From Streptomyces niveus (GTDB lineage Bacteria > Actinomycetota > Actinomycetes > Streptomycetales > Streptomycetaceae): a stretch of 64,000 nucleotides of DNA. The notes beneath the pieces are model-generated. The model saw nothing but the letters and a program-made list of their open reading frames with translations, was not told the DNA's origin and did no database searches. The stretch lies in assembly GCF_002009175.1 (NCBI RefSeq), contig NZ_CP018047.1, positions 7,865,001-7,929,000 on the forward strand. The letters run 5' to 3'. Shown piece by piece: positions 1 to 15,936 of this stretch. Each line of letters begins with the position of its first letter. The stretch's first letter is position 1. The position numbers and the translations under genes were made by a program.

Positions 1-844
1 TGCCCGACGCCAGAGGGGAGCGGGCCAGTTCGATACAGCCCGCGGTGATCAGGGCGATCGCGATGAGTTCGGGCAGCAGCCACCAGCCGGTACGCACGCT
101 CTCACCGAACAGCGTCACACCGTAGGTGATGCTGATCAGCGCGTCGCCGAGCGTCAGCATCGGCTGGGACGCGACCAGGGAGCCCGCCTGGAGGGCGTTC
201 TGGAGCAGGAACAGCGCGCCGATCCCGGCGACCGCCGTGGCGTACAGCTGCCAGGACGAGAAGAACGCGGTGACCCCCGACCCTCCTTCGAGCCGGGCCA
301 CCGCGTCCTTGAGGAGGGCTGCCGTCAGCGCGTACGCGCAGGCCGCCGCGAGTCCCAGCAGTGCGGCACGCGTGTTCTTCCGGGTCCGGAGCGCGACGGC
401 GATCAGCAGGGCCTCGAAGAGTCCGGTGACGATCAGCGCCGGGATCCACGAAAGATCCTCGACCGTCTCACTGCCACCGGTCGGCGCCGCCGATCCGAGG
501 CCCACCGCCAGACCCACGGTCACCGCCGCCACGCCGTACCAGGTGGCGCGTGGCAGGCGGGAGTGGAAGGCGTAGCTCGCGATCAGCAGCGTCATGGGCA
601 GCTCGATGACGAAGATCGGCTGTACGACGGCGATGGGACCGGTCGCCAGCGCCACCGCCTGGCAGACCGCCGCCACCATCACGAGCCCGATCCCGGCGAG
701 CCAGACGGGCTTGCGGAGCAGATGCCCGATCAGCGACAGGCGCATGGCGTCGGAGTCGGGAGCGGTGGCCGCGGCACGCCGCTGGAGCACGGAGGCGGAG
801 CCGTTGCTGATCGCGGTCAGCACGGCGAACAGGACACTGATCAC
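1..844 (-). CDS. DMT-family (EamA/NIPA-like) multi-pass transporter, 3' end cut by window
   Basis: Inner-membrane permease of the drug/metabolite transporter superfamily; the substrate cannot be told from sequence. About 281 codons are visible and the reading frame runs off the left edge, so the C-terminus is missing. The protein is a chain of hydrophobic segments (for example ALIVTGLFEALLIAVAL) with short charged loops. It has the internally repeated layout of the family and the conserved late stretch QPMLTLGDALISITYGV. I chose the GTG at 844 because it follows a GGGG-rich Shine-Dalgarno; the ATG pair just upstream is out of frame and soon meets a stop. The gene stands alone, transcribed away from the ceramidase side. 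Confidence 0.8.
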   Translation of the reverse strand, partial: MISVLFAVLTAISNGSASVLQRRAAATAPDSDAMRLSLIGHLLRKPVWLAGIGLVMVAAVCQAVALATGPIAVVQPIFVIELPMTLLIASYAFHSRLPRATWYGVAAVTVGLAVGLGSAAPTGGSETVEDLSWIPALIVTGLFEALLIAVALRTRKNTRAALLGLAAACAYALTAALLKDAVARLEGGSGVTAFFSSWQLYATAVAGIGALFLLQNALQAGSLVASQPMLTLGDALISITYGVTLFGESVRTGWWLLPELIAIALITAGCIELARSPLASG

Positions 845-932
845 CGCCCCATCATGCGGGCGGGGTGCGCCGGGGCCGCTCTCATCGCGGGCGATGCGGC
901 CGCGCGGGGGCCGAACGGGTTACCCGCCCGGT

Positions 933-1012
933 CCCCGACCTCCGGCTCCCGACCTCCGACCCCCGACCTCCGGCTCCCGGCCCCCGGCTCCCGGCGCCCG
1001 GCGCCCGGCGCC
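933..1012. repeat. Low-complexity CCGGCTCCCG/CCGACCTCCG tandem tract
   Basis: This spacer upstream of the transporter and after the ceramidase stop is built from degenerate tandem copies of a 6-10 base unit (variants of CCGGCTCCCG, CGACCTCCG and GGCGCCC). It ends in three GGCGCCC-like copies directly before the ceramidase stop codon. It is strongly strand-biased, with C runs on the plus strand. It may act as a crude terminator or be slippage-prone filler. No ORF in it looks real. Confidence 0.6.
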
Positions 1013-3100
1013 TCAGTTCACCGTGAACGTCGGGGACGTCCCCGTGAACGGCGTGATCTTTCCGAACAGGTTCTTCGCGTCACCGTGGTGCACGATCCGG
1101 TAGGTTCCGGCAGCGGTGTCGGCGCCGATGTCCCAGGTGACCGTGGCTTTCGACGTGCCGGTGAGCCCGTTGATCCGCGTCCACCGGTACTTGGTCCGCC
1201 AGTCGCCGTCGTCCAGGATCCGCACCCACCTCCCGTCGACCAGCCGCTGCACCTCCAGGAAGGTGCCGCCGCGGCGCAGGTTGTTCTTCGGATGACCGGT
1301 CGCGAACTCGACCGTCGCGGTCCGGCCGCGGGTGTACGACGCGTCCGGCGGGGTCAGGACGGAACCGAACGCGCTGTTGGGCGGCGGGTTGTCGTAGACG
1401 ACACCGGTCTGGAAGTTGAACTGCCGCCCCGACTCGTCCGGCGGCGCGGTCCCCCGGTCGATCGTGGTGCCGTCGCGCAGGGACGCCGCGACCCGCGCGT
1501 ACTCCTGCTGGTAGGCGGGCAGCGTGTAGCGGCCGTAGAGGGTGGAGCCGCCCTCGTACTGCTGGGAGTCGTACTCCTCCGGCGTCGTCACGTACTGGCT
1601 GTAGGAGTTGGCGTACCCCTGGAGCAGCACCCGGTCGAGCGGGACACCCAGTTGCTCCGCCACGGTGCGGCGGACCCGGAGCCCGGAGGTGATGGTGAAC
1701 TCCCCCGGACCGGCCACGAGATGGAGATCGCCGATCTTCATGATCTGCAGGGGCAGGATCTTCGGGGTGACCGGGTGGACGTTGCTCAGCAGACCCGTGG
1801 GGACGAGGCTCGCCTTCGGATACTGGCACGTCGCGAGCCAGGCGGGCGTGTCGATGTGCAGCGCTTCGATGATGGAGGCGACCGGGGTGCGCATGCCCTC
1901 CTCGAAACCGGGGATCGCCGGACCGTCCTCGACGCTGCCCGCGAGCGTGGACGCGCCCACGACGGCGGGGCAGGTGCGGTGCTCCTTGCCGTCCGGGGTG
2001 TAGGCCCCGTTCACGGTCACGTTCTCCATGTCGACGTAGGCGAGCCGGGAGTCGACACCGCCGCTGACGGGCTTCGCGTCCCGGTAGATCTCGCGGGCCT
2101 TGCCGAGCTGGCGTTCACCGAGGATGCGCGCGTTCTCGAACTCGTCCTCGGTCGGGCCCGATCCCGGCTTCAGATTGAGATTGGGGGACATGTCGCCGGC
2201 GTTGGTGTTGGGGAAGGCCGCGACGAAGCCCGGTGTGTTGTCGAGGTAGCGCACACCCTCCAGGTCGTGTTCCCACGCGTAGGAGGCGTAGCCCTTGTTG
2301 TCGGGACTGATGAGCGTGTTCTTGTTGGTGATCGAGGTGTTGTGGGTCGCGAACCAGCTGATCGCGCCGGCGTCCTTGTCGCCCTGCCGGAAGCGCAGCA
2401 CGGTCATCGCCGGGTCGATACCTCCGGGGAAGGCCGCCCGGTCGGCCGCCGGATTGCGGTCGAAGGCGGTCCGGGAGCGGTTGACACTGGCGTTGGTGAG
2501 AGTGCCGGTGCCCAGACTGATGGTGCCGGGCCGCAGATCCTCGTGCGCCTTCACGACGGACTCGACGATGCCGTCGACGATCGCCCGGTAGGTGCCGCTC
2601 TGGAAGCCGAGTACGGAGAGGTTGTACGCGACGTCGTGGGAGTAGCCGCCGGGCCCCGAGTGGGTGTGGGTGGCGGACAACAGCACGTTCTCGTCGCCGT
2701 AGAGGCTGCCGTAGCGTTCCTTGAGGCGTGAGATGACGCCCTGCTGGACGGACTGGAAGATCATCGCGAGGTCGGCGTTGACGTACACCACGCGTTTGCC
2801 GCTCGACGGGTCGGCGACGACGAACGCGCGCGAGCGCTGCCGCTGGTGGATGCCGGACGTCTTCTGGTCGAAGCTCGAATAGCCCATCATCCCGGTCTCG
2901 GCGGCCTCGCCCGTGACGTCGGCGATGCCGCGCCCGACGAGATAGTCCCCGGCGACGGCGTCGGCGGTGCCCGAGGCCGGGCCGCCGGAGGCGAGGGCCG
3001 GGGGAGGGGCGGTGAACGAGGCCGCTCCCAGGGCCGCGACGAGCGCCAGGACGGCGAGCCGGCTTCTGGAGCGACGGGTGGTGGGGGGTGGGGGTGGCAT
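1013..3100 (-). CDS. Secreted neutral/alkaline ceramidase
   Basis: A 695-residue exported amidase that hydrolyses ceramide to sphingosine and fatty acid (family knowledge). The first 38 residues form a Sec-type signal peptide with basic start, hydrophobic core and ALA-S cleavage region. The Zn-site motif THTHSGPGG lies near residues 144-152, and a second His is in WFATHNTS near 253. The nucleophile motif NAGDMSPN places the catalytic Ser near 305. The C-terminal third looks like the beta-sandwich domain of the family, and full length is normal. The ATG at 3100 has a GGAGG Shine-Dalgarno 5 bases upstream; longer in-frame starts would add an Arg/Pro-rich leader before the signal peptide. It is probably used to scavenge sphingolipids in soil. 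No operon partner. Confidence 0.93.
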   Translation of the reverse strand: MPPPPPTTRRSRSRLAVLALVAALGAASFTAPPPALASGGPASGTADAVAGDYLVGRGIADVTGEAAETGMMGYSSFDQKTSGIHQRQRSRAFVVADPSSGKRVVYVNADLAMIFQSVQQGVISRLKERYGSLYGDENVLLSATHTHSGPGGYSHDVAYNLSVLGFQSGTYRAIVDGIVESVVKAHEDLRPGTISLGTGTLTNASVNRSRTAFDRNPAADRAAFPGGIDPAMTVLRFRQGDKDAGAISWFATHNTSITNKNTLISPDNKGYASYAWEHDLEGVRYLDNTPGFVAAFPNTNAGDMSPNLNLKPGSGPTEDEFENARILGERQLGKAREIYRDAKPVSGGVDSRLAYVDMENVTVNGAYTPDGKEHRTCPAVVGASTLAGSVEDGPAIPGFEEGMRTPVASIIEALHIDTPAWLATCQYPKASLVPTGLLSNVHPVTPKILPLQIMKIGDLHLVAGPGEFTITSGLRVRRTVAEQLGVPLDRVLLQGYANSYSQYVTTPEEYDSQQYEGGSTLYGRYTLPAYQQEYARVAASLRDGTTIDRGTAPPDESGRQFNFQTGVVYDNPPPNSAFGSVLTPPDASYTRGRTATVEFATGHPKNNLRRGGTFLEVQRLVDGRWVRILDDGDWRTKYRWTRINGLTGTSKATVTWDIGADTAAGTYRIVHHGDAKNLFGKITPFTGTSPTFTVN

Positions 3101-3445
3101 GGAAACCTCCTGGGCGGGAGAGGAACGGGACGCCGGTCCCGGTCGGGCGGCCCGCCGATGCCGGCGGGCGCGCGGTGGTGCCCCGACGGTAGAGGCGCGT
3201 GCCCTTGATCGCATAGATCTCTACCGGACAGTAAGTACCCGGCGCCGCAGAGGAGATGGGAGGGGCCGGGACGCCCGGCCGGGTATCGCCCCCGAGCCGG
3301 TACGTGTACAGCTCCCGCCACCCAGGCGACCGGGACGGTCCGCACCCCGCGCTGGTCGGCTTCCCGCCGGTCCCCCCCCCGGCCGGTCGGCGGCGCCGAA
3401 GGAAATTCCCTACCCCGTCCGCCGGAAAAGGCGGAGACTCGTCCC
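3101..3445. other. Divergent intergenic region with an 8-bp inverted repeat
   Basis: This non-coding spacer must hold the promoters of the leftward ceramidase and the rightward TOPRIM gene. The only ordered structure I see is the inverted repeat CGGTAGAG (3187-3194) and CTCTACCG (3219-3226). Their centres are 32 bp apart, about three helical turns, and they lie 87-126 bp before the ceramidase start. No convincing -35/-10 pair and no small ORF with a ribosome binding site were found. Confidence 0.4.
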
Positions 3446-4063
3446 GTGGCAGACATGGGTTCGTTCCAGGAGGCCGTCATCGCGTGGGCGGCCGGCGGCC
3501 CCGGCCAACGGGCGCACGAGCTCGCCGCCACTCTGCCCGTCCGGGCGGCCGTCCTGCTCGAAGGTCCGAGCGATGTCGCGGCGGTCGACGCGCTGGCCGC
3601 GAGACGCGGCCGGAACCTGGCGGCCGAAGGGGTCTGCGTCCTGTCGATGGGCGGTGCGATGAGCGTCGGCCGCTTCGTGAGCCTCCTCGGCCCGCCCGGC
3701 CTCGGCGTCCGTCTCACGGGACTCTGCGACGAGCAGGAGCGCAGCTTCTACGACCGCGCGCTGGAGCGGGCCGGTGCGGCGCGGCAGGGGTTCTTCGTCT
3801 GCGCGGCGGATCTGGAGGACGAACTCATCCGCGCGCTGGGCGTGGGACGTGTGGAGGAACTCGTACGGGCCGAGGGCGACCTGCGCGCCCTCCAGACCTT
3901 CCTGCGTCAGCCCGCTCAACAGGGCCGCACCTCACAGCAGCAGTTGCGGCGCTTCCTCGGCACGAAGAAGGGGCGAAAGATCCAGTACGGCCGTGTCCTC
4001 GTCGAGGCGCTCGACGCCGACCAGGTACCGGCCCCGCTCGACGGCCTGCTCACCAGCCTCTGA
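3446..4063 (+). CDS. Stand-alone TOPRIM-domain protein (OLD-nuclease-like)
   Basis: A 205-residue cytoplasmic protein that resembles the TOPRIM half of OLD-family nucleases and related nucleotidyl transferase/hydrolase proteins. Visible TOPRIM elements are the glutamate loop LLEGPSDVAAVDAL near residues 36-50, the glycine turn SMGGAMSVGRF, and an acidic segment GLCDEQE near 92-98 followed by CAADLEDELI. The usual N-terminal ABC-ATPase of OLD proteins is absent and no ATPase gene lies beside it. The GTG start at 3446 has an AAGGCGGAG-like Shine-Dalgarno about 9 bases upstream. The role is unknown; nucleic-acid cleavage is only an inference. It has its own transcription unit. Confidence 0.75.
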   Translation: MADMGSFQEAVIAWAAGGPGQRAHELAATLPVRAAVLLEGPSDVAAVDALAARRGRNLAAEGVCVLSMGGAMSVGRFVSLLGPPGLGVRLTGLCDEQERSFYDRALERAGAARQGFFVCAADLEDELIRALGVGRVEELVRAEGDLRALQTFLRQPAQQGRTSQQQLRRFLGTKKGRKIQYGRVLVEALDADQVPAPLDGLLTSL

Positions 4064-4385
4064 CCCCGGGCGGCGAACGCGGCGGCGGAACAGACGAGCG
4101 ACACCTGGCGGGTCGGCCACGCGGGTACCTGCCGCACGGTCCTCGACGGACACGGCTCCCGGCCGGACGCGCGGCCCGGCCGATGATCGACACGCCCGGG
4201 CAGCGCACCTCCGGTAGCGTTGTTCGGACGACGTGCTCATCCAGGGTCGCCCTCTCTCGCCGCCGACCCCCTCCGCCGATCGACCGCGCCTTTCACGCCG
4301 GTCCGCGGCGTGAACGCGCATTCCGGTCGGGGACTGAACTCCGGCGCACACGTGGAGTTGTCGATCAGTTCGGAAGGAAGTCACC
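4064..4385. other. Intergenic region, nothing recognised
   Basis: A spacer of about 320 bp between the TOPRIM gene and the hydrolase, both rightward. It presumably contains the hydrolase promoter, but I see no consensus promoter, hairpin terminator, palindrome or credible small ORF. The last bases, GGAAGGAAGTCACC, are the Shine-Dalgarno region of the next gene. Confidence 0.4.
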
Positions 4386-5213
4386 ATGCCCTTCGCCACC
4401 GCCAAGGACGGCACACAGATCTACTACAAGGACTGGGGCGCGGGTCAGCCCGTCGTCTTCTCCCACGGCTGGCCGCTCATCGCCGACGCCTGGGACCCCC
4501 AGATGAAAGTGATGGCGGACAACGGCTTCCGCACCGTGGCCCACGACCGGCGCGGCGGCGGACGCTCCGGCCAGACCTGGGAGGGCAACGACCTCGACAC
4601 CTACGCCGACGACCTCGCGGCGGTCATCGAGGACGCCGGTCTGCGCGACGTCATCCTCGTCGGCCACTCGACGGGCGGCGGAGAGGTCACCCGCTACATC
4701 GGCAGGCACGGCTCCGGCCGGGTCGCCAAAGCCGTACTGCTGGGAGCGATCCCGCCGCTCATGCTCAAGACGGAAGCGAATCCCGAAGGGCTCCCGATCG
4801 ACGTCTTCGACGGAATCCGGGAGGGCGTGGAGAAGGACCGCTCGCAGTTCTACCAAGAACTCAGCGCCGCGTTCTACGGTGCCAATCGCGACGGCTCGAC
4901 CGTCTCCCAGGGAACCCGCGACGAGTTCTGGCTGTGGGGAATGACGGTCGGTATCAAAGGCGCCTACGACTGTGTGAAGGCGTTCTCCGAGACCGACCTC
5001 ACCGAGGACCTCAAGCGGTTCGACGTACCCACGCTGATCGTTCACGGCGACGACGACCAGATCGTGCCGATCGTGGCCGCCGGCGACAAGTCCTCCCAAC
5101 TCGTCAAGGACGTGACCTACAAGGTCTATCCGGGTGCGCCCCACGGGCTGGCGATGGTGCCCGAGTTCGCGGGACGCTTCAACGCGGACCTCCTGGAGTT
5201 CGCACGTAGTTGA
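4386..5213 (+). CDS. Alpha/beta hydrolase, cofactor-free haloperoxidase/esterase type
   Basis: A 275-residue soluble alpha/beta hydrolase of the non-heme chloroperoxidase (perhydrolase/arylesterase) group. The catalytic triad is readable: nucleophile elbow GHSTGG with Ser95, acid in GDDDQIVP (about Asp224), and His253 in APHGL. The oxyanion-side motif SHGWPL is near residue 26 and DRRGGGRS near 54-61. Length and motif spacing are normal. The ATG at 4386 follows GGAAGGA at good spacing. In vivo such enzymes usually act as esterases or perhydrolases, and halogenation is a side reaction, so the natural substrate is unknown. The gene is monocistronic. Confidence 0.9.
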
Positions 5214-5266
5214 GCGGTGCGCCCGGACGTCCCGGATGCGGATCGATCCGGTTGACGGCCGGGACG

Positions 5267-6085
5267 TCACAGCCAGCCGCGCCGGGCCGCCTGCCAGGCG
5301 AGCTGCATACGGGTGGTCGCTCCGGCGAGTTCCATCATGTGCTGGATATGACGCTGCACGGTGCGCCGGCTCAGCCCCATCTGGCTGGCGATCGCCTTGT
5401 CGGCCACGCCCGCCACGACGTTGTCGACCGCGCCCTCGTCGTCGAAGAAGGCCTTCTCGTGCAGCACCCGGTAGGTCACGCCACGGCCCAGCGCGTCGAA
5501 CTCCGCGTCCTTGCTGCCCGACGGCATGGCCACGTACTGGGCCTTGCAGAACCAGAACGCCCCGAGGTCGTCGGAGGGAACCCGGACCGACCGGGCGTCG
5601 ATGCTGTCCAGGCGGCGGGTGGGAGAACCGTCGTCGGCGAAGCCGGTGAGCCGCCGCACCGCGGCGTCCGCGAACCCGTCGGCGCCCGCCACGATCAGGG
5701 GCAGTCCCTCGGCATGTGCCTCGTCGTAGCGCTGCGCGACGAGCGCGGTCACGTCGAACAACTTCTTGTCCAGACGTCCGGCGGAGACCAGCTCCCCGGC
5801 GTCGGAGGGCAGGATCGTCAGCCGGCCGTCCTCCTCAAGGGTCCGGAAGACGATGCCCTTACGGCCCTTTCCCGGCTCGACCGAGACGACCCGGCCGTCC
5901 TCGTCACCACCCGCGAGAGTGACCCGGTCGCCGGTGATCAGGCGCACGGAGACACTGCCCGCCGCGGCCCCGCCGCCCGCCGGCTTCTCCCGTACTGCGC
6001 TGGTGGTGGCCGACACCGGCGCCACGGCGCCGGCGGCCAGAGTCAGTCCCGCCGATATGGCCGCCACAAGGCGGATCCGTCTCAT
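5267..6085 (-). CDS. Chimeric ORF: S8-protease signal/propeptide fused to LuxR/TrmB-type regulator C-terminus
   Basis: A 272-residue intact ORF assembled from unrelated parts. Residues 1-26 are a Sec signal peptide. Residues about 45-178 match the propeptide pattern of Streptomyces subtilisin-like (S8) proteases (VRLITGDRVTL, PGKGRKGIVFRT, LDSIDARSVRV, DLGAFW), but no Asp/His/Ser catalytic domain follows. From about residue 179 the sequence changes to the middle of a TrmB/LuxR-like regulator (ALGRGVTYRVLHEKA), and at about 228 it jumps to that family's C-terminal helix-turn-helix (DKAIASQMGLSRRTVQRH). Both joins keep the frame. Likely a deletion product of two neighbouring genes. Whether it is expressed is unknown; an exported DNA-binding domain makes no obvious sense. 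Confidence 0.75.
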   Translation of the reverse strand: MRRIRLVAAISAGLTLAAGAVAPVSATTSAVREKPAGGGAAAGSVSVRLITGDRVTLAGGDEDGRVVSVEPGKGRKGIVFRTLEEDGRLTILPSDAGELVSAGRLDKKLFDVTALVAQRYDEAHAEGLPLIVAGADGFADAAVRRLTGFADDGSPTRRLDSIDARSVRVPSDDLGAFWFCKAQYVAMPSGSKDAEFDALGRGVTYRVLHEKAFFDDEGAVDNVVAGVADKAIASQMGLSRRTVQRHIQHMMELAGATTRMQLAWQAARRGWL

Positions 6086-6512
6086 CTGGTGCCATGCCTT
6101 CCGTTGTGCGAAGTGAGGAGTTCACCTGCTGCACAGACTCCTGTGGCGCCGGATGGGTGTCACTGGATTCCGGTGGCACAGGTGGGACATGTCCCAACGG
6201 CGACACGCGCCCCGCGAAGGCCCTCGTCGGAGAGCCGGGAACGCTGCGTCGTCGGGTGGAGGCTTTCGGTCACCCGCACCGTCGAGGCCAGTGCCTCCGG
6301 GCCGAAGCGGGCCCTGGCGGGAGCGGTGTCCACATCAGTTGTTCGATAATGGACTAAAGCGGATAAAACGCCCGCCCGGATCGGTACGCTCGGAGATGGG
6401 TACTCCATTCGACCGATCCCGAAGGAGCCAAGGAAATGAGTCCCCGCGTGGAGGAGCCGGCACGGGGTCCCCGCAGGCCCCGCGACAGCCGCTGTGAGGT
6501 GTGGAGGTTCCC
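6086..6512. other. Divergent intergenic region between chimeric ORF and PP2C gene
   Basis: A non-coding spacer of about 430 bp that should contain the promoters of the leftward chimeric gene and the rightward phosphatase. Its one clear feature is the 14-bp palindrome listed separately. ORFs in all frames here are short, Arg-rich and lack ribosome binding sites. Confidence 0.4.
6183..6196. promoter_or_regulatory. Perfect 14-bp palindrome TGGGACATGTCCCA
   Basis: TGGGACATGTCCCA is a perfect dyad about 100 bp upstream of the chimeric ORF start and about 315 bp before the PP2C gene. It has the size and symmetry of an operator. It may have belonged to the protease or LuxR-type gene whose remains form the chimera. 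The bound protein is unknown. Confidence 0.45.
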
Positions 6513-7604
6513 GTGATCGCCGGGCGCCCTGTGCACGCCTCGCGCATCGCGGAGATGGTGCCGCACGCGCTGATCGCGACGGTCGTGCTCGTCGACGTTC
6601 TGGCACAGTCCGCCGTCCTGCTGTCCCTGCTCGCCGCGCCCCCCGCTCTCGCCGCCGCCACCAGCCGGCCGCGTGCCGTCGCCCTGGTGGGCGGGCTGGC
6701 CATCGTCGTGTGCGCGGGTGTGGTCGTCGCGGACGAGACCCTGGCGCCCGGCCGCGGGATGGTCGCGCTGGGCTCCGTGGCATTCGTCGCGCTCGTCGCC
6801 GCCTACGCCTCGGTCGTCCGCGTCCGGGCGGTGGAGAAACAACGGAAGACCATGCGTGAACTCGTGGACGTGCGGGCGGTCGCCGACGTCGCCCAGGCGG
6901 CGATCCTCGGTCCGGTGCCCCGCACCAGCGGCCCGATCGAGTTGGCGGTCTCCTACACCTCCGCGGCCGTGGGGGCGCGGATCGGCGGGGATCTCTACGA
7001 AGCCATCCCCTTGGCCGGGGGAGGAGTCCGTCTGATCGTCGGAGACGTGCAGGGCAAAGGGCTGACAGCGGTACAGACGGCGGTCACGGTCCTGACGGCC
7101 TTCCGCGTCAGGGTGCTGGGGGCCGGCAGCCTCCAGGAGGTGGCGCAGCACATCGAGAACGCTCTGAGGCTCCGCGAACTCTCCGAGAAGTTCGTCACGG
7201 CGGTCCTGGCCGACTGTACGGAGGACGGAGTGGTGACCCTGCTGAACTTCGGGCATCCGCCACCGCTCGTACGCCGGGCGGACGGCACCGTCGTGCCGGC
7301 GGAGCCCGACGTACCGGGCCCGCCCCTCGGTCTGCCCCGAGGCCTGAGCAAGCACTTCCTCGACGGCTCCGGCACCTGCTCGGTGCGGCTGGGACCCGGT
7401 GACCGGCTGCTGTTCTACACCGACGGCACCACCGAGGCCCGCGACACCGACGGGGTGTTCTTCGAGCTCCCCGAGACCGTCCGCCACCTCGACCACGACG
7501 ACCTCGACCATGACCTCGCGACCCTGCGCGGCGCGCTCGCCGCCCACACCCGCAGGCCGCTGGACGACGACGCCGCGCTGCTCCTGCTCCGCCTCACCGG
7601 CTGA
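6513..7604 (+). CDS. Membrane-anchored SpoIIE-type PP2C serine phosphatase
   Basis: A protein of about 363 residues. It starts with three hydrophobic helices (roughly residues 15-105), then a short linker, and a SpoIIE/RsbU-like PP2C catalytic domain. Metal-binding motifs are GGDLYEA, GDVQGKG, FYTDGTTEA and the late DDDAALLLL. Such enzymes dephosphorylate STAS anti-anti-sigma proteins in partner-switching cascades. I prefer the GTG at 6513, which has GGAGG 5 bases upstream; an in-frame GTG at 6501 has its AG-rich run too close. No STAS or HATPase partner is adjacent, though such genes occur at 54.3-58.6 kb. Confidence 0.87.
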   Translation: MIAGRPVHASRIAEMVPHALIATVVLVDVLAQSAVLLSLLAAPPALAAATSRPRAVALVGGLAIVVCAGVVVADETLAPGRGMVALGSVAFVALVAAYASVVRVRAVEKQRKTMRELVDVRAVADVAQAAILGPVPRTSGPIELAVSYTSAAVGARIGGDLYEAIPLAGGGVRLIVGDVQGKGLTAVQTAVTVLTAFRVRVLGAGSLQEVAQHIENALRLRELSEKFVTAVLADCTEDGVVTLLNFGHPPPLVRRADGTVVPAEPDVPGPPLGLPRGLSKHFLDGSGTCSVRLGPGDRLLFYTDGTTEARDTDGVFFELPETVRHLDHDDLDHDLATLRGALAAHTRRPLDDDAALLLLRLTG

Positions 7605-7714
7605 GCACCGGCCGGGTCCGAGGGGCTGTCCTCCCCTTCCCGCCCGCATGGCGCGGGGGTGGGCGATCCCGAAATGGAGGTAACACCAAGTGGCGAACTG
7701 ATTACGTTCCGTTC

Positions 7715-7729
7715 TAGTCTCGCCCCCGA
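7715..7729 (+). promoter_or_regulatory. Possible -10 box placing the SARP gene on a leaderless transcript
   Basis: TAGTCT at 7715-7720 fits the TANNNT -10 pattern and ends 8 bases before the ATG at 7729. No Shine-Dalgarno precedes that ATG (the bases are C-rich). Together this suggests transcription starting at or next to the start codon. No good -35 is visible, so this is tentative. Confidence 0.3.
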
Positions 7730-10700
7730 TGAACGCATCGTACGAGTTCGGGATCCTGGGACCGCTCGTCGTCACACGCGACGGTCGGAATATGAGCCTC
7801 GGCGCCGCCCAACTGCGCACACTTCTCGCCGCGTTGCTGCTCGACGCCGGTCGTGTCGTCCCGGTCGACGCGCTCGTGGACCGGCTGTGGGGGGAGTGTC
7901 CGCCGCGGGGCGCCAGGAACGCCGTGCAGAACTACGTCCTGCGGCTGCGCCGGGCCCTCGGCCCGGAGGTCGTACGGACGGACCGGCGCGGGTACGCGCT
8001 CGACACGGAGGGCGGACACCGGCTGGACGCGGACCGGTTCGCCTCCCTCACCCGGGAAGGCGCGGCCGCGCTCGACGCGGACCGGCCCGAGCGGGCGCTG
8101 GAACTGCTCGGCGAAGCGCTGGCGCTGTGGCGGGGGGAGCCGCTGGCCGATCTGGAGCCGGAACGGTTCCGGGACGTCGTACCCGTCCTGTGCGAACAGC
8201 GGCTGGCCGCCGAGGAGTCGTGGATCGACGCCGCGATCCGCCGCGGGCGGCCCGCGGACGCGCTCCCGGAACTGCGCAGGCTGACCGGGCTCCACCCGCT
8301 GCGCGAACGGTTCTGGGCCCAGCGGATGCTCGCGCTGTACCAGTGCGGCCGACAGGGTGAGGCGCTGGCGAGCTACCGCGAGATCAGCGTGCTGCTCGCG
8401 GAGGAACTGGGCGTCGATCCGGGCACCGAACTCAAGGCCCTGCACCAGCGGATGGTCATGGCGGCGCCGGACCTCGCCCCCGCCGTACCCCGGACAGGGA
8501 CGGGCTCGGCGGTATCGGCAGCCCCGGCAGTACCGCCACCCGGTCCGGGCCGGAGCGGGAACCTGCCCGCCGAGACCACCTCGTTCATCGGACGGGAGAA
8601 GGAACTCGCCGAGGCGGAGCGGCTGTTGGGACTCTCCCGGCTGGTCACGTTCACCGGCGTGGGCGGGGTCGGCAAGACCCGGCTCGCGCTCCGCACCGCG
8701 CGACGGGTGGCAGCCGCCTTTCCCGACGGGGCGTGGCTCGTCGATCTCGCGGCGGTCGCCGATCCGGCGCTGGTGGAACGGGCCGTCGCCGAGTCGCTGG
8801 GGCTGCGCGACCAGTCCACACGTTCCGCGACCGACACGGTCGCGGACCACCTGCGCGCCCGCCGTCCGCTGCTCGTACTGGACAACTGCGAGCACCTGGT
8901 GGACGCCGCGGCCACACTCGTACTGCGGCTGCTGCGGGCCGCGCCGGACCTGCGAGTGCTCGCCACCAGCCGCGAGAGGCTGGGCGTACCGGGCGAACAC
9001 CTGCTGCTGGTGCCCTGTCTGACGCTCCGTGAGGAGCGGGGCGGCGGCGCGTGCGAGGCGGTGCGACTGCTGTACGACCGCGCCGCCGCCTGCGCGGTCG
9101 CACGGCGGACGGGCGAGGGTGACGGCGAGTCGGCGGCCGAGCTGTGCCGGCGTCTGGACGGCATCCCGCTGGCCATCGAACTAGCGGCGGTACGGCTGAG
9201 TTCACTGAGCGTGGAGGAGGTCCTGGAACGGCTGGAGGACCGTTTCCGTCTGCTGTCGGCCCCGCGCCATCTGTCGCACGGCCCGGCCGGGTGGCCCGTC
9301 GCGCTCGACGGGCCCGGACCGGGAGGCGTGCCCGGACAGGCGTCGGGACTGGTGCCAGGACAGGCGCCGGGACGGGCGCCGGTGCTCGCCCCCGGCCGCT
9401 ACCTCCAGACCCTGCGCGGCGTCATGGACTGGAGCCACGGTCTGTGCACGCCGGGAGAACGGCTGCTCTGGGCCCGGCTGTCGGTCTTCGTCGGCTGCTT
9501 CGACCTCCGGGCCGCCGAGGCCGTCTGTGCGGACGAGGCGGGCCGGCCGGAATCGTGCGAGGCGGCGGAGGGCATCGCAAGGGAGGACGTACTGGACCTG
9601 ATCGACGGTCTCGTCCACAAGTCCGTGGTGACGGTCGAGCCCGCCGTGTCACCGGGGCGGCACGGCGGCGCCACCCGCTACCGCCTGCTGGAGACCATCC
9701 GCCAGTACGGTACGGACCGTCTGCGGGCGGCGGGCAGTTCGACCGGACTGCTCGTCAGGCACTGCGAGTACTACCGGGCACTCACCGCCAGCGCCGCCGC
9801 CGAATGGTGCGGGCCCGACGAGGCAGGCTGGCTGGAGCGGCTGCGCCGGGAACTGCCCAACATCCGCTCGGCGCTGGACTTCTGCCGTGTGAGTCCCGGC
9901 CTCGCGCCGACCGGCGCGGCCATCGTCGTGGACCTGACGCGGACGCGCTGCTGGTTCTTCGGCAGCACACTCGGTGAGGCCCGCCACTGGATCGACAGCC
10001 TCTCTCCGCTGGTCGATCCGGGCCTCGGCGAACTGACGGTGATGGTGCCGGTCATGAAGGCCTTCGTCGCGATCATCCAGGGGGACCATTCGGCGGCCGA
10101 GGCCCACCTCGCCGAGTGCCGGGCCGTCGCGCCCGGGACGCCGAGACCCGCGCCCGTCGTCTACATCGAGGGTGTGTACGCGCTCCTGGTGCCCGGCGAA
10201 CCGGCTTCCATCGCTCAACTCGCTTCTGCCCGAGGTGAGTTCATCGCGGCCGGACGGACCGGGGACGCGCACATGGCCACCATGTTCTGGGCGATGGCCG
10301 CGGCGTTCCTGGGAGACCGGGCCGAGGCCCGCCTCGCCTGCGACACCTACGTCGCCGAGGCCGAGAGCGCGGGCGCCGAGTGGGCGCGGACCTGGGCCCA
10401 GTGGTGCACCGGACTGACCGAACTGCTGCACGGAGAGCCGCGCCGAGGGCTCGCGCCCCTGTGCGACGCACTCGTACGGCAGCGTGCCCTCGACGACAAC
10501 TGGGGCCCCGCCTGGACCCTGGAGACCCTGGCCTGGACACTCGGCGCCCTCGGGCACCACGACCGGGCGGCCGTGGTCCTCGGGGCGGCGCACCGGTACC
10601 GCCAGGTGACGGGCGCCAGGATCACCGAACTCCGCCCCTTCGGCACACTCCACGCCCGCACACGCGCCCTCGTACAGGAGCACATGGCGGCAGGGGCATA

Positions 10701-10794
10701 CGCCGGCGCGTGGGAGCGGGGTGCGACGGCCGAGGACAGCATTGCCCTCGCGCTCGGGATCGCACACGAGGTGCGCCGGCCGACGGACAGGTGA
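7729..10794 (+). CDS. SARP-family regulator with BTAD, NB-ARC and C-terminal helical repeats
   Basis: A 1021-residue AfsR/SARP-type transcriptional activator. The N-terminus is an OmpR-like winged helix (residues about 5-95, FGILGPLVVTRDGR), followed by a bacterial transcriptional activation domain to about 245 (FWAQRMLALYQCGRQGEALASY is split around its helices). A Pro/Gly linker leads to an NB-ARC ATPase with P-loop GVGGVGKT near 310-317, Walker B LLVLDNCEH, and RLDGIPLAIELAA. A winged-helix/TPR-like C-terminus follows. Such proteins often switch on antibiotic clusters or respond to phosphorylation or ATP state. No biosynthetic core genes are directly adjacent, so the target is unknown. A Gly/Pro-rich insert near residues 520-560 looks like linker expansion. 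Confidence 0.92.
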   Translation: MNASYEFGILGPLVVTRDGRNMSLGAAQLRTLLAALLLDAGRVVPVDALVDRLWGECPPRGARNAVQNYVLRLRRALGPEVVRTDRRGYALDTEGGHRLDADRFASLTREGAAALDADRPERALELLGEALALWRGEPLADLEPERFRDVVPVLCEQRLAAEESWIDAAIRRGRPADALPELRRLTGLHPLRERFWAQRMLALYQCGRQGEALASYREISVLLAEELGVDPGTELKALHQRMVMAAPDLAPAVPRTGTGSAVSAAPAVPPPGPGRSGNLPAETTSFIGREKELAEAERLLGLSRLVTFTGVGGVGKTRLALRTARRVAAAFPDGAWLVDLAAVADPALVERAVAESLGLRDQSTRSATDTVADHLRARRPLLVLDNCEHLVDAAATLVLRLLRAAPDLRVLATSRERLGVPGEHLLLVPCLTLREERGGGACEAVRLLYDRAAACAVARRTGEGDGESAAELCRRLDGIPLAIELAAVRLSSLSVEEVLERLEDRFRLLSAPRHLSHGPAGWPVALDGPGPGGVPGQASGLVPGQAPGRAPVLAPGRYLQTLRGVMDWSHGLCTPGERLLWARLSVFVGCFDLRAAEAVCADEAGRPESCEAAEGIAREDVLDLIDGLVHKSVVTVEPAVSPGRHGGATRYRLLETIRQYGTDRLRAAGSSTGLLVRHCEYYRALTASAAAEWCGPDEAGWLERLRRELPNIRSALDFCRVSPGLAPTGAAIVVDLTRTRCWFFGSTLGEARHWIDSLSPLVDPGLGELTVMVPVMKAFVAIIQGDHSAAEAHLAECRAVAPGTPRPAPVVYIEGVYALLVPGEPASIAQLASARGEFIAAGRTGDAHMATMFWAMAAAFLGDRAEARLACDTYVAEAESAGAEWARTWAQWCTGLTELLHGEPRRGLAPLCDALVRQRALDDNWGPAWTLETLAWTLGALGHHDRAAVVLGAAHRYRQVTGARITELRPFGTLHARTRALVQEHMAAGAYAGAWERGATAEDSIALALGIAHEVRRPTDR

Positions 10795-10857
10795 GCCGCG
10801 CAGTGACCCGGGCGTGACCGGGACGACAGCGCCGGCCGGAATGGTGAGTCGCGAGAA

Positions 10858-10883
10858 CACCGCGGGCGGCGCCGCCCGCGGTG
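10858..10883. terminator. Perfect 26-bp GC palindrome after SARP gene
   Basis: A self-complementary sequence with 13-base arms (left arm CACCGCGGGCGGC) and no spacer, 60-90 bp after the SARP stop. It would form a stable hairpin and probably ends the SARP transcript before the small secreted protein gene. No T run follows, which is usual in Streptomyces. Confidence 0.6.
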
Positions 10884-10937
10884 CGACGCGTCACCGCACG
10901 ACACCCGATGACAGACACGAAACCGAACAGGAATCCC

Positions 10938-11261
10938 ATGCGTAAGCGCCACGCTCTTCGTACCGCAGTCAGCGCCACGATGCTGGCCGGAGCCCTTGTC
11001 CTCGGCTCGGGCACGGCCATCGCGAGCAGCTTCCTCAGCTGGTCGGGACCGCAGAACACCGGGAGCGCCCGAGAGGTGTTCGCCTGCGGCTGCAACGAGA
11101 TCGACCCCGGTCACAAGGCGGCCTACCGCTTCACGTACACCGGCCAGACCGCCGCGATGTACAACGAGGAAGGCTGCCGGGGGAAGGTGCACACCACCTT
11201 CCGCGGCAGCCAGGAGAGCCGGGGCGCCTTCGGCTGGAAGAGCGTCTTCTTCCACTGCTGA
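10938..11261 (+). CDS. Small secreted Cys-rich protein, possibly beta/gamma-crystallin-like
   Basis: A 107-residue predicted secreted protein. Residues 1-30 form a Sec signal peptide (MRKRHALRT start, hydrophobic core, AIA-SS cleavage). The mature part of about 77 residues contains four Cys (ACGCNE, EEGCRGK, terminal FHC), enough for two disulfides, and many aromatic and Gly residues. The MYNEEGCRGK...GWKSVFFHC pattern faintly recalls the small beta/gamma-crystallin fold of Streptomyces metalloproteinase inhibitors and killer-toxin-like proteins; this is only an inference. The ATG at 10938 is preceded by AGGAA at proper spacing. It lies between two strong hairpins, so it is monocistronic. Confidence 0.75.
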   Translation: MRKRHALRTAVSATMLAGALVLGSGTAIASSFLSWSGPQNTGSAREVFACGCNEIDPGHKAAYRFTYTGQTAAMYNEEGCRGKVHTTFRGSQESRGAFGWKSVFFHC

Positions 11262-11287
11262 GCGGCGTAAAGGCTGAACCGGCCGAG

Positions 11288-11330
11288 CCACGGGTGGGTG
11301 GACCCCGGTCCCAGGTCCACCCACCCGTGG
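11288..11330. terminator. Strong hairpin terminator, 17-bp perfect stem
   Basis: Arms 11288-11304 (CCACGGGTGGGTGGACC) and 11314-11330 are perfectly complementary around a 9-base loop, 26 bases after the stop of the small secreted protein gene. It is a clear intrinsic-type terminator that also insulates the downstream kinase/aminotransferase gene. Confidence 0.85.
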
Positions 11331-11382
11331 CGGCACATCAGGAGTCACTCCGGGCTCCGCCCCTCGTCGCTCGGCTCCACCG

Positions 11383-11411
11383 TTGACACGGGTAACTCCC
11401 CTGGCTACATT
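11383..11411 (+). promoter_or_regulatory. Consensus vegetative promoter for kinase/aminotransferase gene
   Basis: TTGACA at 11383-11388 and TACATT at 11406-11411 are separated by exactly 17 bases, an excellent housekeeping-sigma promoter. The expected start point near 11418 leaves a 5' leader of about 57 bases before the ATG at 11475. No operator-like palindrome overlaps it. Confidence 0.7.
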
Positions 11412-11474
11412 GCGCCGGAACGATCCGGCAGGCGTTCCCGCGAGGCCGGTTCCGGCCCTCGGAGGGGGAGCAGA

Positions 11475-14400
11475 ATGGGGTTCTCGGCCGCGGACTGGCG
11501 TGTGCCCGCCATGGTTGCCGTCGATGACACCACGGTGGCGGCCGTGCTGTCGGAGCGGTTCGGCGTACGGGGGACCGTCCGGGACCTCGGCAGTCAGCAG
11601 GACCGCAACTACCGGGTACGCACGGAGTCGGGCGGTGACCACGTCCTGAAGATGGCGAACCCCGTGTCCGATCCCGCCACCCTGCTTGCCCAGGTGACGG
11701 CGGCCGAGCATCTTGCCGCCGCCGATCCCGCTCTCCGGCTGCCCCGTGCGCGGGCCGGCGTCGACGGCGACTTCGTGCAGCGGATCACCGTCGGGGGTGT
11801 GGCGCTGCACTGCCGGCTCTTCGACTACGTACCCGGCGAACCGATCATGGACAGCCGCTACCTCGCCCCACGTGTCGTGGCCCGGCTCGGTGAACTCGCC
11901 GGATGTACGACCGCTTCCCTGGCCGGTCTCGACATGCCGGACACGGACCGTCCGCGGCTGTGGGACCTGCGCAACGCGGCGGATGTCGTGGAGGCCCTGG
12001 CCCCGTTCATGACCGACACGGCGCGCGCCGAACGCGTGATGCGCGAGGCCCGCGCGGCTCACGCGCGGCTGCGCTCCGTCGAGGCGCGGCTGCCGGTCCA
12101 GGTGATCCACGGTGATCTCACCGACAACAACGTCGTGTGCGAACCGGGGCCGGACGGTCGCCCCATGCCCGTCGGTGTCATCGACTTCGGCGACCTGGGG
12201 CACGGCTGGGCCGTGGCCGAACTCGCCGTCACCTGCGCGTCCGTCCTGCACCACCACGGCTCCACTCCGGCGTCCGTGCTGCCCGCTGTAAGGGCCTTCC
12301 ACGCGGTCCGCCCGCTGGCCGGGCCGGAGCTGGACGCGCTGTGGCCGCTGATCGTCCTGCGGACCGCGGTCCTGGTGGTCAGCGGCCAGTACGACGTCCT
12401 TCAGGACCCCGGCAACGAGTACGCCGAGACCGCGCTGGAGCGCGAGTGGGCGATGTTCGAGGCGGCCGTCTCGGTTCCCACGGAGGTCATGACGGCCCAA
12501 CTGCGGTCGGCCGTCGGGCACTTGGCGCCGCCCGGTCCGCCGGCGGCCGTCCACCCGCTCCTGCCGGACCTGGTGGGCGGCGTCGAGACGCTGGACCTGT
12601 CAGTGTCCAGCACCGCGCTGCACGAGGGCCGCTGGCTGGCCTCCGATGCCGAAGACGTCCTGGCCGCACGGGCGTTGGAGCGGAACGGTACGGCTGTACG
12701 GACCCGGCACGGCGAGTACCGGCTGACCCGTTCGAGGCCGGGCGAACCGGACGCCGCGACCCTGGCGCTCGGGACGGAGCTGCGTGTCGCGGTTCCGACG
12801 GCGGTCCGGGCGCCCTGGGCGGGATCGCTGGTGCGGCACTCCCCGGACGGGGTGACGCTGCGGACCGAAGACGGATGGACCCTGGTGCTCGACGGCATCG
12901 ACGTCGGCCCGGATGCGGATGCGGAGGGGGCCAACGCCGGTGTGATCGCAAGCAATCGCACCGTCCAGGCCGGGGCGCCGCTCGGTACCGTCGTCCCGCG
13001 TCCGGACGGCTCCGCCGCGCACCTTCAGCTCTCCCGGCTGGCGGACCGGCCCGCGCCGCGCACGGTCCCACCGGAACTGGCCGACGGCTGGCTGGCGGTG
13101 TGCCCGGACCCGGCCGCGCTCTTCGAGCCCGCAGCCCCCGACGTCCCCGCAGCCCCTGCCGTCCCCGCCGTCCCCGCCGTCCGCACGGAACCGGGCACGA
13201 CCGCCGCGAGCCTCCTGGAGCGCCGTGAACGCTCCTTCGCCGCCGTACAGGAGCACTACTTCGACTCGCCACCCCGTATCGAGCGCGGCTGGCGCGAGCA
13301 TCTCGTGGACACCGAGGGCCGCTGCTACCTGGACATGCTCAACAACGTGACCATTCTCGGGCACGGCCATCCCGGCCTGAGCGAGGCGGTCCACCAGCAG
13401 TGGCAGCGCCTCAACACCAACTCGCGCTTCCACTACGAGTCCGTCGTCAGCCTCTCGGAGCGGCTGGCCGCCCTGCTGCCGGACGGCCTGGACACCGTCT
13501 TCCTCGTCAACAGCGGTTCGGAGGCGGTGGATCTGGCGCTGCGCCTCGCGTGGGCGGCAGCCGGACGGCAGGACGTCGTCGCGGTGGGGGAGGCGTACCA
13601 CGGCTGGACGTACGCCTCCGACGCCGTCTCGACCTCGGTCGCCGACAATCCCGGCGCGCTCGCCTCGCGCCCCGACTGGGTGCACGTCCTGCCCGCGCCG
13701 AACGCCTACCGGGGCAGCCATCGCGGCCCCGACGCCGAGCGGTACGGTCCGCTCGCGGCCGACTCGATCCGGGAGCTTGCCCGGTCGGGACGCCCTCCCG
13801 CCGCGTTCATCTGCGAGCCGTACTACGGCAACGCCGGAGGCATGGCCCTGCCCGACGGCTATCTCCGGCAGGTGTACGAGGCGACCCGCGCGGCGGGCGG
13901 TCTGTGCGTCGCCGACGAGGTGCAGGTCGGCTACGGGCGGCTCGGATCGCACTTCTGGGGCTTCGAGCAGCAGGGCGTCGTACCGGACATCGTCACCGTG
14001 GCCAAGGCGATGGGCAACGGGCACCCGCTGGGCGCGGTGATCACCTCCAAGGAGATCGCCGACACCTACCGCTCCCAGGGCTACTTCTTCTCCTCGGCCG
14101 GCGGCAGCCCGGTCAGCTCGGTCGTCGGGCTCACCGTGCTCGACGCCCTGCGGGACGAAGGGCTCCAGGAGAACGCCCGGATCGTGGGCGGCCATCTGCG
14201 CGACCGGCTGCTGGAGCTTGCCGACCGGCATCCGCTGATCGGCGCGGTGCACGGGACGGGGCTCTACCTCGGGGTGGAATTCGTCAGGGACCGGGCGACG
14301 CTGGAGCCGGCCGCCGAGGAGACCGCCGCGATCTGCGAGCGGCTGCGCGAACTGGGCGTCGTCGTACAGCCGACATCGGACCGGCTGTGTGTCCTGAAGA

Positions 14401-14483
14401 TCAAGCCCCCGCTCTGTCTGACCCGCGAGAGCGCGGACCGGTTCGCCGCCGTGCTCGACGACACCCTGACCCACGGATGGTGA
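11475..14483 (+). CDS. Three-domain fusion: APH-type kinase, M23-like domain, class III aminotransferase
   Basis: A 1002-residue cytoplasmic fusion. Residues about 20-330 form an aminoglycoside-phosphotransferase-fold kinase (catalytic loop HGDLTDNN near 212-219, metal motif VIDFGD). Residues about 395-565 resemble the peptidase-M23-like insert known in this architecture, but the metal-binding His residues look lost. Residues about 590-1002 are a class III PLP aminotransferase with the PLP Lys in VAKAMGNG (about Lys844). The family relates to hydroxylysine kinase and phospho-lyase enzymes that phosphorylate an amino alcohol and then eliminate phosphate and ammonia. Here one chain would carry both steps. 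The ATG at 11475 has a strong GGAGGGGGAG. Its stop overlaps the LacI start. Confidence 0.9.
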   Translation: MGFSAADWRVPAMVAVDDTTVAAVLSERFGVRGTVRDLGSQQDRNYRVRTESGGDHVLKMANPVSDPATLLAQVTAAEHLAAADPALRLPRARAGVDGDFVQRITVGGVALHCRLFDYVPGEPIMDSRYLAPRVVARLGELAGCTTASLAGLDMPDTDRPRLWDLRNAADVVEALAPFMTDTARAERVMREARAAHARLRSVEARLPVQVIHGDLTDNNVVCEPGPDGRPMPVGVIDFGDLGHGWAVAELAVTCASVLHHHGSTPASVLPAVRAFHAVRPLAGPELDALWPLIVLRTAVLVVSGQYDVLQDPGNEYAETALEREWAMFEAAVSVPTEVMTAQLRSAVGHLAPPGPPAAVHPLLPDLVGGVETLDLSVSSTALHEGRWLASDAEDVLAARALERNGTAVRTRHGEYRLTRSRPGEPDAATLALGTELRVAVPTAVRAPWAGSLVRHSPDGVTLRTEDGWTLVLDGIDVGPDADAEGANAGVIASNRTVQAGAPLGTVVPRPDGSAAHLQLSRLADRPAPRTVPPELADGWLAVCPDPAALFEPAAPDVPAAPAVPAVPAVRTEPGTTAASLLERRERSFAAVQEHYFDSPPRIERGWREHLVDTEGRCYLDMLNNVTILGHGHPGLSEAVHQQWQRLNTNSRFHYESVVSLSERLAALLPDGLDTVFLVNSGSEAVDLALRLAWAAAGRQDVVAVGEAYHGWTYASDAVSTSVADNPGALASRPDWVHVLPAPNAYRGSHRGPDAERYGPLAADSIRELARSGRPPAAFICEPYYGNAGGMALPDGYLRQVYEATRAAGGLCVADEVQVGYGRLGSHFWGFEQQGVVPDIVTVAKAMGNGHPLGAVITSKEIADTYRSQGYFFSSAGGSPVSSVVGLTVLDALRDEGLQENARIVGGHLRDRLLELADRHPLIGAVHGTGLYLGVEFVRDRATLEPAAEETAAICERLRELGVVVQPTSDRLCVLKIKPPLCLTRESADRFAAVLDDTLTHGW

Positions 14484-15583
14484 TCCGGAGGCCGCGTACG
14501 ACACCGGACACGTCCGGCTCCGACCGCTCCGACCGCTCCGACCGCTCCGGAGGCTCGGGCGGCCCCGCCGGGCCCCGTCCCGACGACACCCCGCCGCCCA
14601 CGATCGCCGACGTGGCGCGCGAGGCGGCGGTCTCCAAGACCACCGCGTCGGACGCGCTGCGCGGCCACGGCCGGGTCTCCGGCGCGACCCGTGACGCGGT
14701 CGAGGCGGCGGCCCTGCGACTCGGCTACTCGCCCAACAGGAACGCGCGTTCGCTGCGTACATCGGTGACCGAGACCGTCGCTCTGCACATCCCGGAGGTC
14801 CTGACGAGCGCCGAGTACTACATGTCGTTCGTCTTCGGGGTGACCGAACAGGCGACACGGGCCGGCCTCAACGTCACGATGATCTCCTCCGGTCATCTGC
14901 CGCACCGCGGGGCGCTGCCCCAGGTGGACGGCCTCGTCCTCTGCGACCCGATGGCCGGGGACCCTGTCGTCGAGGCGCTGATGAACTCGGGACTGCCGGT
15001 GGTGACCGCCGAGCGGTACGTCGGCGACAAGGAGTCCACCGGCGTGGTCTGCTCCGACCACGAGACCACCACGGTCGAACTGCTCGACCACCTCCGGGAC
15101 ATGGGGGCCGTCCGGCCCGCCTTACTCGCCTCCGACAGCACCGCGGAACGGGCCGCGACGGTGCTCGACACCTACCGCCGGTGGTGCGTACGCAACGGGC
15201 TGCCGGACACCGTCCACAAGGCGCCCTTCGGCTCGCCCCCCGAGGTGCCGCGAGCCGAGGTGGCCCGGATGCTTGCCGGGTCCCCGGAGACCGACGCCGT
15301 AGTCTGCGCCGCCGACGGCGCCGCCGTGACCGTGCTCCCCGAGATCCGGGCGGCGGGCCGTACGGTCGGCAAGGACCTGCTCCTGGCCTCGTGCGTCGAC
15401 AGCACCACCATGCGTCTTTCGGACCCCCCGATCACGGCGATCGATCTGCGACCTCGTGACATGGGCGCGGAGTGCGCGCGCCTCCTCTGCGACATCCTGT
15501 CCGGCCGCTCGCCGCGCGGCACGGTCCGGTCCCTTCCGATCACCCTCAACACCCGCGCTTCGACCGGCCTCCCGCGCCCGTAG
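14477..15583 (+). CDS. LacI-family transcriptional regulator
   Basis: A 368-residue repressor. After a variable 36-residue leader with a tandem Asp-Arg-Ser repeat comes the LacI helix-turn-helix (TIADVAREAAVSKTTASDAL), a hinge (YSPNRNARSLRTS) and a periplasmic-binding-protein-like effector domain ending in a typical LPITLNTRAS. The ATG at 14477 overlaps the aminotransferase stop by 7 bases, so the two are translationally coupled. It probably senses the substrate or product of the fusion enzyme and controls that operon. A GTG at 14480 is an alternative start. Confidence 0.9.
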   Translation: MVIRRPRTTPDTSGSDRSDRSDRSGGSGGPAGPRPDDTPPPTIADVAREAAVSKTTASDALRGHGRVSGATRDAVEAAALRLGYSPNRNARSLRTSVTETVALHIPEVLTSAEYYMSFVFGVTEQATRAGLNVTMISSGHLPHRGALPQVDGLVLCDPMAGDPVVEALMNSGLPVVTAERYVGDKESTGVVCSDHETTTVELLDHLRDMGAVRPALLASDSTAERAATVLDTYRRWCVRNGLPDTVHKAPFGSPPEVPRAEVARMLAGSPETDAVVCAADGAAVTVLPEIRAAGRTVGKDLLLASCVDSTTMRLSDPPITAIDLRPRDMGAECARLLCDILSGRSPRGTVRSLPITLNTRASTGLPRP

Positions 15584-15936
15584 TAAGAGATCCGGCGCGC
15601 GACTCCGCTCGCAGCGCGGTCCCGAACTCGCGGGCGTCACCACCCGCACCTGCATGGGCGTTTCGGCCATCCGTTTCACAGGGCGCCCTCCCACCCGGCA
15701 AGGGCCCGTGCATCCGGCACGCACCGATTCCCCAGCGGTCACGCGGTTTCCGGAGCGTCCGAAACACACGCGTTCGAAAACGCCTTCTCGTCGTTGAGCT
15801 TCACGACGTGCCCGATCGACCTTCCAGGAGGCCCAGTTGACCTCGGCTGAGACACGGCAACCACACGGAGCGGGCGGTCCGCGGCCACGCGGAAGGAGTG
15901 CCGTGTCCGAGCACGGGGGTATGCGAGGTGGGCAGC
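15584..15936. other. Leader region of the ABC/NUDIX/dipeptidase operon
   Basis: About 350 bp between the LacI gene and the ABC transporter. It contains one short ORF with a canonical ribosome binding site (listed separately). Other short frames (for example 15654-15797) lack Shine-Dalgarno sequences. I see no strong hairpin after the LacI stop and no consensus promoter. Confidence 0.4.

Follow-up and report, generated by a model that had tools for sequence, protein, structure and literature searches.

The 272-aa open reading frame (ORF) described here, located near an end of the Streptomyces niveus chromosome, appears to be a deletion-born fusion of an S8 protease gene with a gene for a TrmB/LuxR-type regulator and is probably functionless, a reading to which we assign a probability of about 93%. 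The stretch of DNA analysed (64,000 nucleotides of contig NZ_CP018047.1; hereafter, the window) lies 61–125 kb from the chromosome end of a 7.99-Mb genome represented by a single contig. In the ORF list of the window the ORF is one unbroken reading frame running through two junctions, J1 and J2 (Table 1).

Table 1. Coordinates of the chimeric ORF, its constituent pieces, the two junctions and the conserved upstream box in the window (L066, locus of S. scopuliridis RB72; L067, locus of S. niveus NRRL 2466; HSP, blastn segment).
Feature	Position	Strand	Description and basis
Chimeric ORF	5267..6085	-	S8 protease and TrmB/LuxR regulator remnant; matches piecewise an intact pair of adjacent genes in L066 and L067
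5' part of S8 protease gene, residues 1–178	5552..6085	-	Signal-peptide-like start and propeptide; homology to long S8 proteases
Regulator middle piece, residues 177–227	5405..5556	-	94.7% nucleotide identity to L066 9118–9269
Regulator C-terminal piece	5266..5418	-	Truncated LuxR/GerE helix-turn-helix and stop codon; GerE profile match
Junction J1	5552..5556	-	5-bp microhomology TCTGG; L066 5311 joined to 9118–9122; overlapping HSP ends
Junction J2	5405..5418	-	14-bp imperfect direct repeat; HSP overlap, L066 9256–9269 and 9565–9578
Conserved 32-bp box	6174..6205	-	Candidate operator/promoter element of the former protease gene

Residues 1–178 are homologous to the N-terminal end of long S8 proteases; residues 177–227 and 223–272 align with two different, separate parts of a single TrmB/LuxR regulator. 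The protease 5' part together with its upstream region is 83.6% identical (blastn, nucleotide level) to positions 4650–5311 of L066. Thus, the chimera of a protease N-terminal part and a regulator C-terminus reported in the earlier note is indeed present at this place and on this strand, its pieces matching separate proteins. When the whole ORF was searched against Pfam, GerE (PF00196) was the sole family above the cut-off (residues 223–263, E = 1.9e-6), and the domain is incomplete: the match covers profile positions 14–54 of 57, compared with 2–54 in the intact L066 regulator. Residues 1–178 alone gave zero Pfam matches, and the label 'S8 propeptide' is thus based on the homology with complete proteases; the signal-peptide-like character of the N-terminus was judged by eye. 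The Peptidase_S8 catalytic domain (PF00082), found at residues 229–486 of the L066 protease, and the TrmB N-terminal domain (PF01978), found at residues 17–83 of the L066 regulator upstream of its GerE domain (residues 287–339), are both absent from the ORF according to Pfam. No NCBIfam model scored above the cut-off, and in neither collection does a single family span the whole ORF. The ATG at position 6085 is kept in most of the aligned relatives. A database prediction of the same ORF (P0001, window positions 5267–6067) uses a later start codon and is 266 aa long.

Judging from their sequences, the two parts of the ORF correspond to separate neighbouring genes in relatives. In S. scopuliridis RB72 the protease gene (L066 4775–8563, 1262 aa) and the regulator gene (8670–9716, 348 aa) lie on the same strand, 106 bp apart, and the layout is the same in S. 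niveus NRRL 2466 (proteins of 1260 and 348 aa). Full-length separate genes of the kind that the earlier note suggested looking for in other strains are therefore present. Matches to the whole ORF at E ≤ 1e-25 were retrieved from 42 of 392 genus genomes, the window's own included, and matches to the regulator part at E ≤ 1e-16 from 51 of the 392. With the window's own genome excluded, a regulator match was located within 8 kb of the protease match (N-terminal part, E ≤ 1e-25) in 30 of 41 genomes; 24 of these nearby pairs are arranged in tandem with the protease upstream, five are convergent and one is divergent. The other 11 genomes comprise four that yielded no regulator match at E ≤ 1e-16 (G085, G224, G227 and G295), three with the regulator on another contig (G028, G259 and G264) and four with the regulator elsewhere in the genome (G256, G297, G325 and G349). 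More distant matches to an S8 protease and to a LuxR-type helix-turn-helix were also found within ∼2 kb of each other (G024, G019, G004, G015, G012, G021, G005 and G002), so that the pairing may reach beyond this subfamily. No literature on an S8 protease paired with a TrmB/LuxR regulator was found among the titles and beginnings of abstracts listed.

Compared with the intact Streptomyces pairs, the window retains the same order and strand, homologous pieces of both genes and the upstream region, but is missing the S8 catalytic and TrmB domains, a part of the regulator middle and the start of GerE. Two deletions relative to L066 account for the difference. At J1, 3811 bp are missing and the interior of the protease gene is joined to the interior of the regulator gene; at J2, 309 bp (103 codons) are missing inside the regulator gene. 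Both junctions lie close to where the earlier note had placed them (near 5551 and 5404), and its suggestion of a deletion scar of two neighbouring genes is borne out by the tandem intact pairs in relatives and by the different deletions in a sister genome (see below). The opposite polarity, insertion of DNA between the genes in relatives, was rejected: L066 has complete domains on both sides, and the window therefore carries the shortened form.

The microhomology at J1 would be consistent with microhomology end joining, and the repeat at J2, the two copies of which are identical at 11 of 14 positions in L066 and at 13 of 14 in the sister genome G377, would suit slippage or single-strand annealing. 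The J2 repeat pair is not among the seven families listed in a repeat search of L066. In Streptomyces ambofaciens, repair of induced breaks in the central chromosome by non-homologous end joining is reported to leave deletions of 191 bp to 23.6 kb (PMC5869714), and the frequency of indels between close strains is reported to rise toward the chromosome ends (PMC8627663). In the proposed course of events, an ancestor would have had an S8 protease gene and, behind it in the same orientation, a TrmB/LuxR regulator gene. A 3.8 kb deletion at the 5-bp microhomology would have fused the protease gene, at codon 178, with the middle part of the regulator gene, and a deletion of 309 bp between the imperfect 14-bp repeats would have removed the regulator segment preceding the helix-turn-helix, the frame being kept by chance on both occasions and the protease and regulator activities presumably being lost.

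The preservation of the frame, considered in the earlier note as unlikely for random decay, carries little weight. Two junctions are both in frame with a chance of 1/9, and the in-frame state is consequently weak evidence of anything. Moreover, in G377, where the junction is out of frame, the protease frame likewise meets no stop codon over dozens of codons into the regulator sequence; false frames in high-GC DNA can stay open long.

The fusion itself was encountered only once. A protein search in which 8000 candidates were scored gave 288 matches at E ≤ 0.001; among the 120 of these that were listed, only the window's own protein (one member, one contig) covered more than 65% of the query, the other 119 covering at most 65%. 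Likewise, among the matches listed for three overlapping sets of 61, 392 and 356 genomes, none besides the window's own extended across both halves. A conserved family with the architecture of this ORF was thus rejected: among the matches listed, neither the genome nor the protein searches yielded another carrier, and the findings that the earlier note had named as contradicting its proposal, the same architecture in many species or one Pfam family covering the ORF, were not obtained among those matches. The unfused state can be taken as ancestral, since the other matches listed are unfused and G377 is broken differently, a polarity drawn from this comparison rather than from tree reconstruction. 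A second close copy of either parent in the same genome was considered as well and rejected by a search of that genome, where the best other match to the N-terminal part had an E value of 1.57 and the best other helix-turn-helix match was 46% identical.

That only one sequence of the fusion is known could also reflect an error in the sequencing or assembly of this genome. We consider this extremely improbable, given that the genome is a single contig and 99.99% complete, that the junctions are clean and fall within microhomology, and that the G377 locus is also broken, at other breakpoints.

The G377 locus is syntenic with that of the window, the flanks being 94.3% (window positions 1–937), 91.5% (995–5231) and 88.1% (5977–7957) identical; among the loci compared, such flanks were seen in no other genome except for two short stretches of L061. 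Further along the window sequence, ∼7.6 kb of it (7958–15604) is replaced by ∼1 kb in G377 (L078 12486–13490). The replaced stretch holds most of a SARP-type regulator gene (BTAD) and a gene encoding APH and aminotransferase domains (11298–14483), and 154 bp of it (window 10441–10592) are inverted in G377.

In both the window and G377 the two genes are broken and the upstream box is retained, but the breakpoints differ. In G377 the protease start is still there, ∼0.33 kb of the propeptide region is missing and the end of this region is retained slightly past the protease breakpoint of the window; the sequence then enters the regulator at about position 9245 of L066, with a longer regulator tail kept through to the stop codon. 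This regulator remnant is not in the frame of the protease start. Since DNA lost from one locus is retained in the other, and vice versa, neither can derive from the other.

The protease breakpoints of the window and G377 (L078 9973–10660) are nevertheless close, 4 bp apart by blastn ends and ∼11 bp by eye, the chance of which would be about 0.2–0.6% if breakpoints were uniform over 3789 bp. Such nearness is not expected of independent events; it may be due to chance or to a local fragile spot. It would also be explained by a shared ancestral deletion that fused the pair before the two lineages split, with each lineage then trimming the junction. We regard this scenario as unlikely in view of a further homologue, P0002 (encoded on a 3263-base contig with the source label 'lgn'). 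Over a shared stretch of 62 residues P0002 differs from G377 at two positions and from the window at seven, the window and G377 differing at nine; P0002 aligns with the intact L066 protease up to L066 residue 421, well beyond the breakpoint of the window. Being nearer to G377 and yet uncut past the breakpoint, it favours independent losses: barring recombination, the common ancestor should have been intact, although the point depends on one protein from a short contig, the homology of which to L066 stops after P0002 residue 415. The conserved helix-turn-helix described below also fits a regulator that was intact until recently. The pair was thus probably broken independently in two lineages.

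Over the helix-turn-helix stretch, the window and G377 differ by five mismatches in 150 bp, all at third codon positions, one of them changing His to Gln; the flanking hydrolase and SpoIIE-type genes are 94.7% and 92.0% identical, respectively. This pattern suggests a recent loss of the regulator, with selection acting on it during most of the period after the split. The N-terminal part has accumulated 23 synonymous and 21 nonsynonymous changes in the window, 4 and 4 in L066, and 11 and 15 in L067, so that the balance in the window is similar to that in the intact homologues and shows no sign of long decay. In the regulator part, 7 synonymous and 6 nonsynonymous codon changes were counted in the window, against 9 and 1 in L066 and L067 together; among the six nonsynonymous changes, one was made by the junction, two are common to G377 and one to P0006. 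Conservation of the helix-turn-helix and the balance of changes in the N-terminal part fit recent loss, but continued selection too, and these substitution patterns do not discriminate between a scar of recent origin and a young gene under selection.

Alignment of the regions upstream of the protease gene, comprising the window and 24 of 37 distinct regions (N-terminal part at least 54% identical; one of the 24 is the window's locus again), revealed a strongly conserved stretch. With up to 3 mismatches allowed, the pattern TGTCGCNNTTGSGACATGTCSCACCTGTGCCA has a single site in each of 30 of the 392 genus genomes, and a reversed-pattern control gave zero sites in the same 392 genomes. Upstream of the start of this S8 protease, and on the same strand, are 26 of the 30 sites, 21 of these at a distance of 84–90 bp; the remaining four are in G165, G108 (opposite strand), G311 and G177 (other contig). 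Since the pattern was drawn from those upstream regions, its presence there is partly by construction; its absence elsewhere in those genomes is not an effect of pattern construction. The box may represent an operator of the partner TrmB/LuxR regulator. It is absent at up to 3 mismatches from several genomes that have both genes (for example, G034, G220, G393 and G258), which makes the link between the box and the regulator a lead rather than a result. In the window and in G377 the box survives although both genes are broken there. A simple scan for a sigma-70 promoter gave no hit within window positions 5200–6500.

The upstream box and the start are kept, and transcription of the fused gene may thus continue. 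The predicted protein, a signal peptide with a propeptide that has lost its protease and a DNA-binding domain that is out of place and incomplete, would most likely be degraded and useless. An AlphaFold2 model of the ORF, based on 22 sequences, has low overall confidence (mean pLDDT 59.6, pTM 0.42): residues 41–120 form the only confident block (mean pLDDT per ten residues, 76–90), the values are below 50 at residues 178–227 and range from 61 to 71 across the helix-turn-helix. The protease and TrmB domains are gone, the LuxR domain is incomplete and, the N-terminus being signal-peptide-like, the DNA-binding part of the predicted product would be exported. In our judgement it is therefore highly probable that the ORF has no function.

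The earlier note had left room for a newly formed gene with an exported DNA-binding domain. A new functional gene could indeed be useful through an exported product, such as a propeptide-type inhibitor, or through one that stays inside the cell and binds DNA; in its most specific form, a very young gene, driven by the former protease promoter, would encode a secreted, folded propeptide carrying the fused tail and would have acquired a use, for example, the inhibition of related S8 proteases; we hold this form to be just as improbable as the general case. The open frame, the start codon and the upstream box are all retained, residues 41–120 are modelled confidently (pLDDT 76–90) and the helix-turn-helix is conserved relative to G377. 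Yet the fusion stands alone in the protein search and no other listed genome match spans both halves, 13 profile positions are missing at the start of the LuxR match, the pLDDT of residues 178–227 is under 50, there would be no obvious target for a DNA-binding domain outside the cell, and the sister genome G377 is without a fused product. Taken together, these points make a functional new gene very unlikely. If it were nonetheless real, the sister species would have lost the same pair without gaining a gene.

Fusion genes born by deletion are known, for example, acrR-glcD and mlaE-htpX of the Mycobacterium tuberculosis/bovis split (Kaul et al., preprint 2026, PMC12803068), and, on the part of that preprint that describes them, the ORF belongs to this already known class. 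As in those fusions, separate genes were joined by deletion, domains of the parents were lost and no function is evident. Unlike those fusions, as far as the same description goes, the ORF is known from one genome only, is separated from its intact relatives by two deletions, has a secreted protease and a neighbouring regulator as parents, and has a sister locus where the pair was broken otherwise. As a cleanly resolved case, in which both breakpoints are located and the sister locus is broken in another way, it illustrates a route to in-frame chimeric ORFs close to the ends of Streptomyces chromosomes, and cautions that an open in-frame fusion need not be a purposeful gene. In addition, the intact protease–regulator pair with its conserved upstream box makes the regulation of these proteases directly testable.
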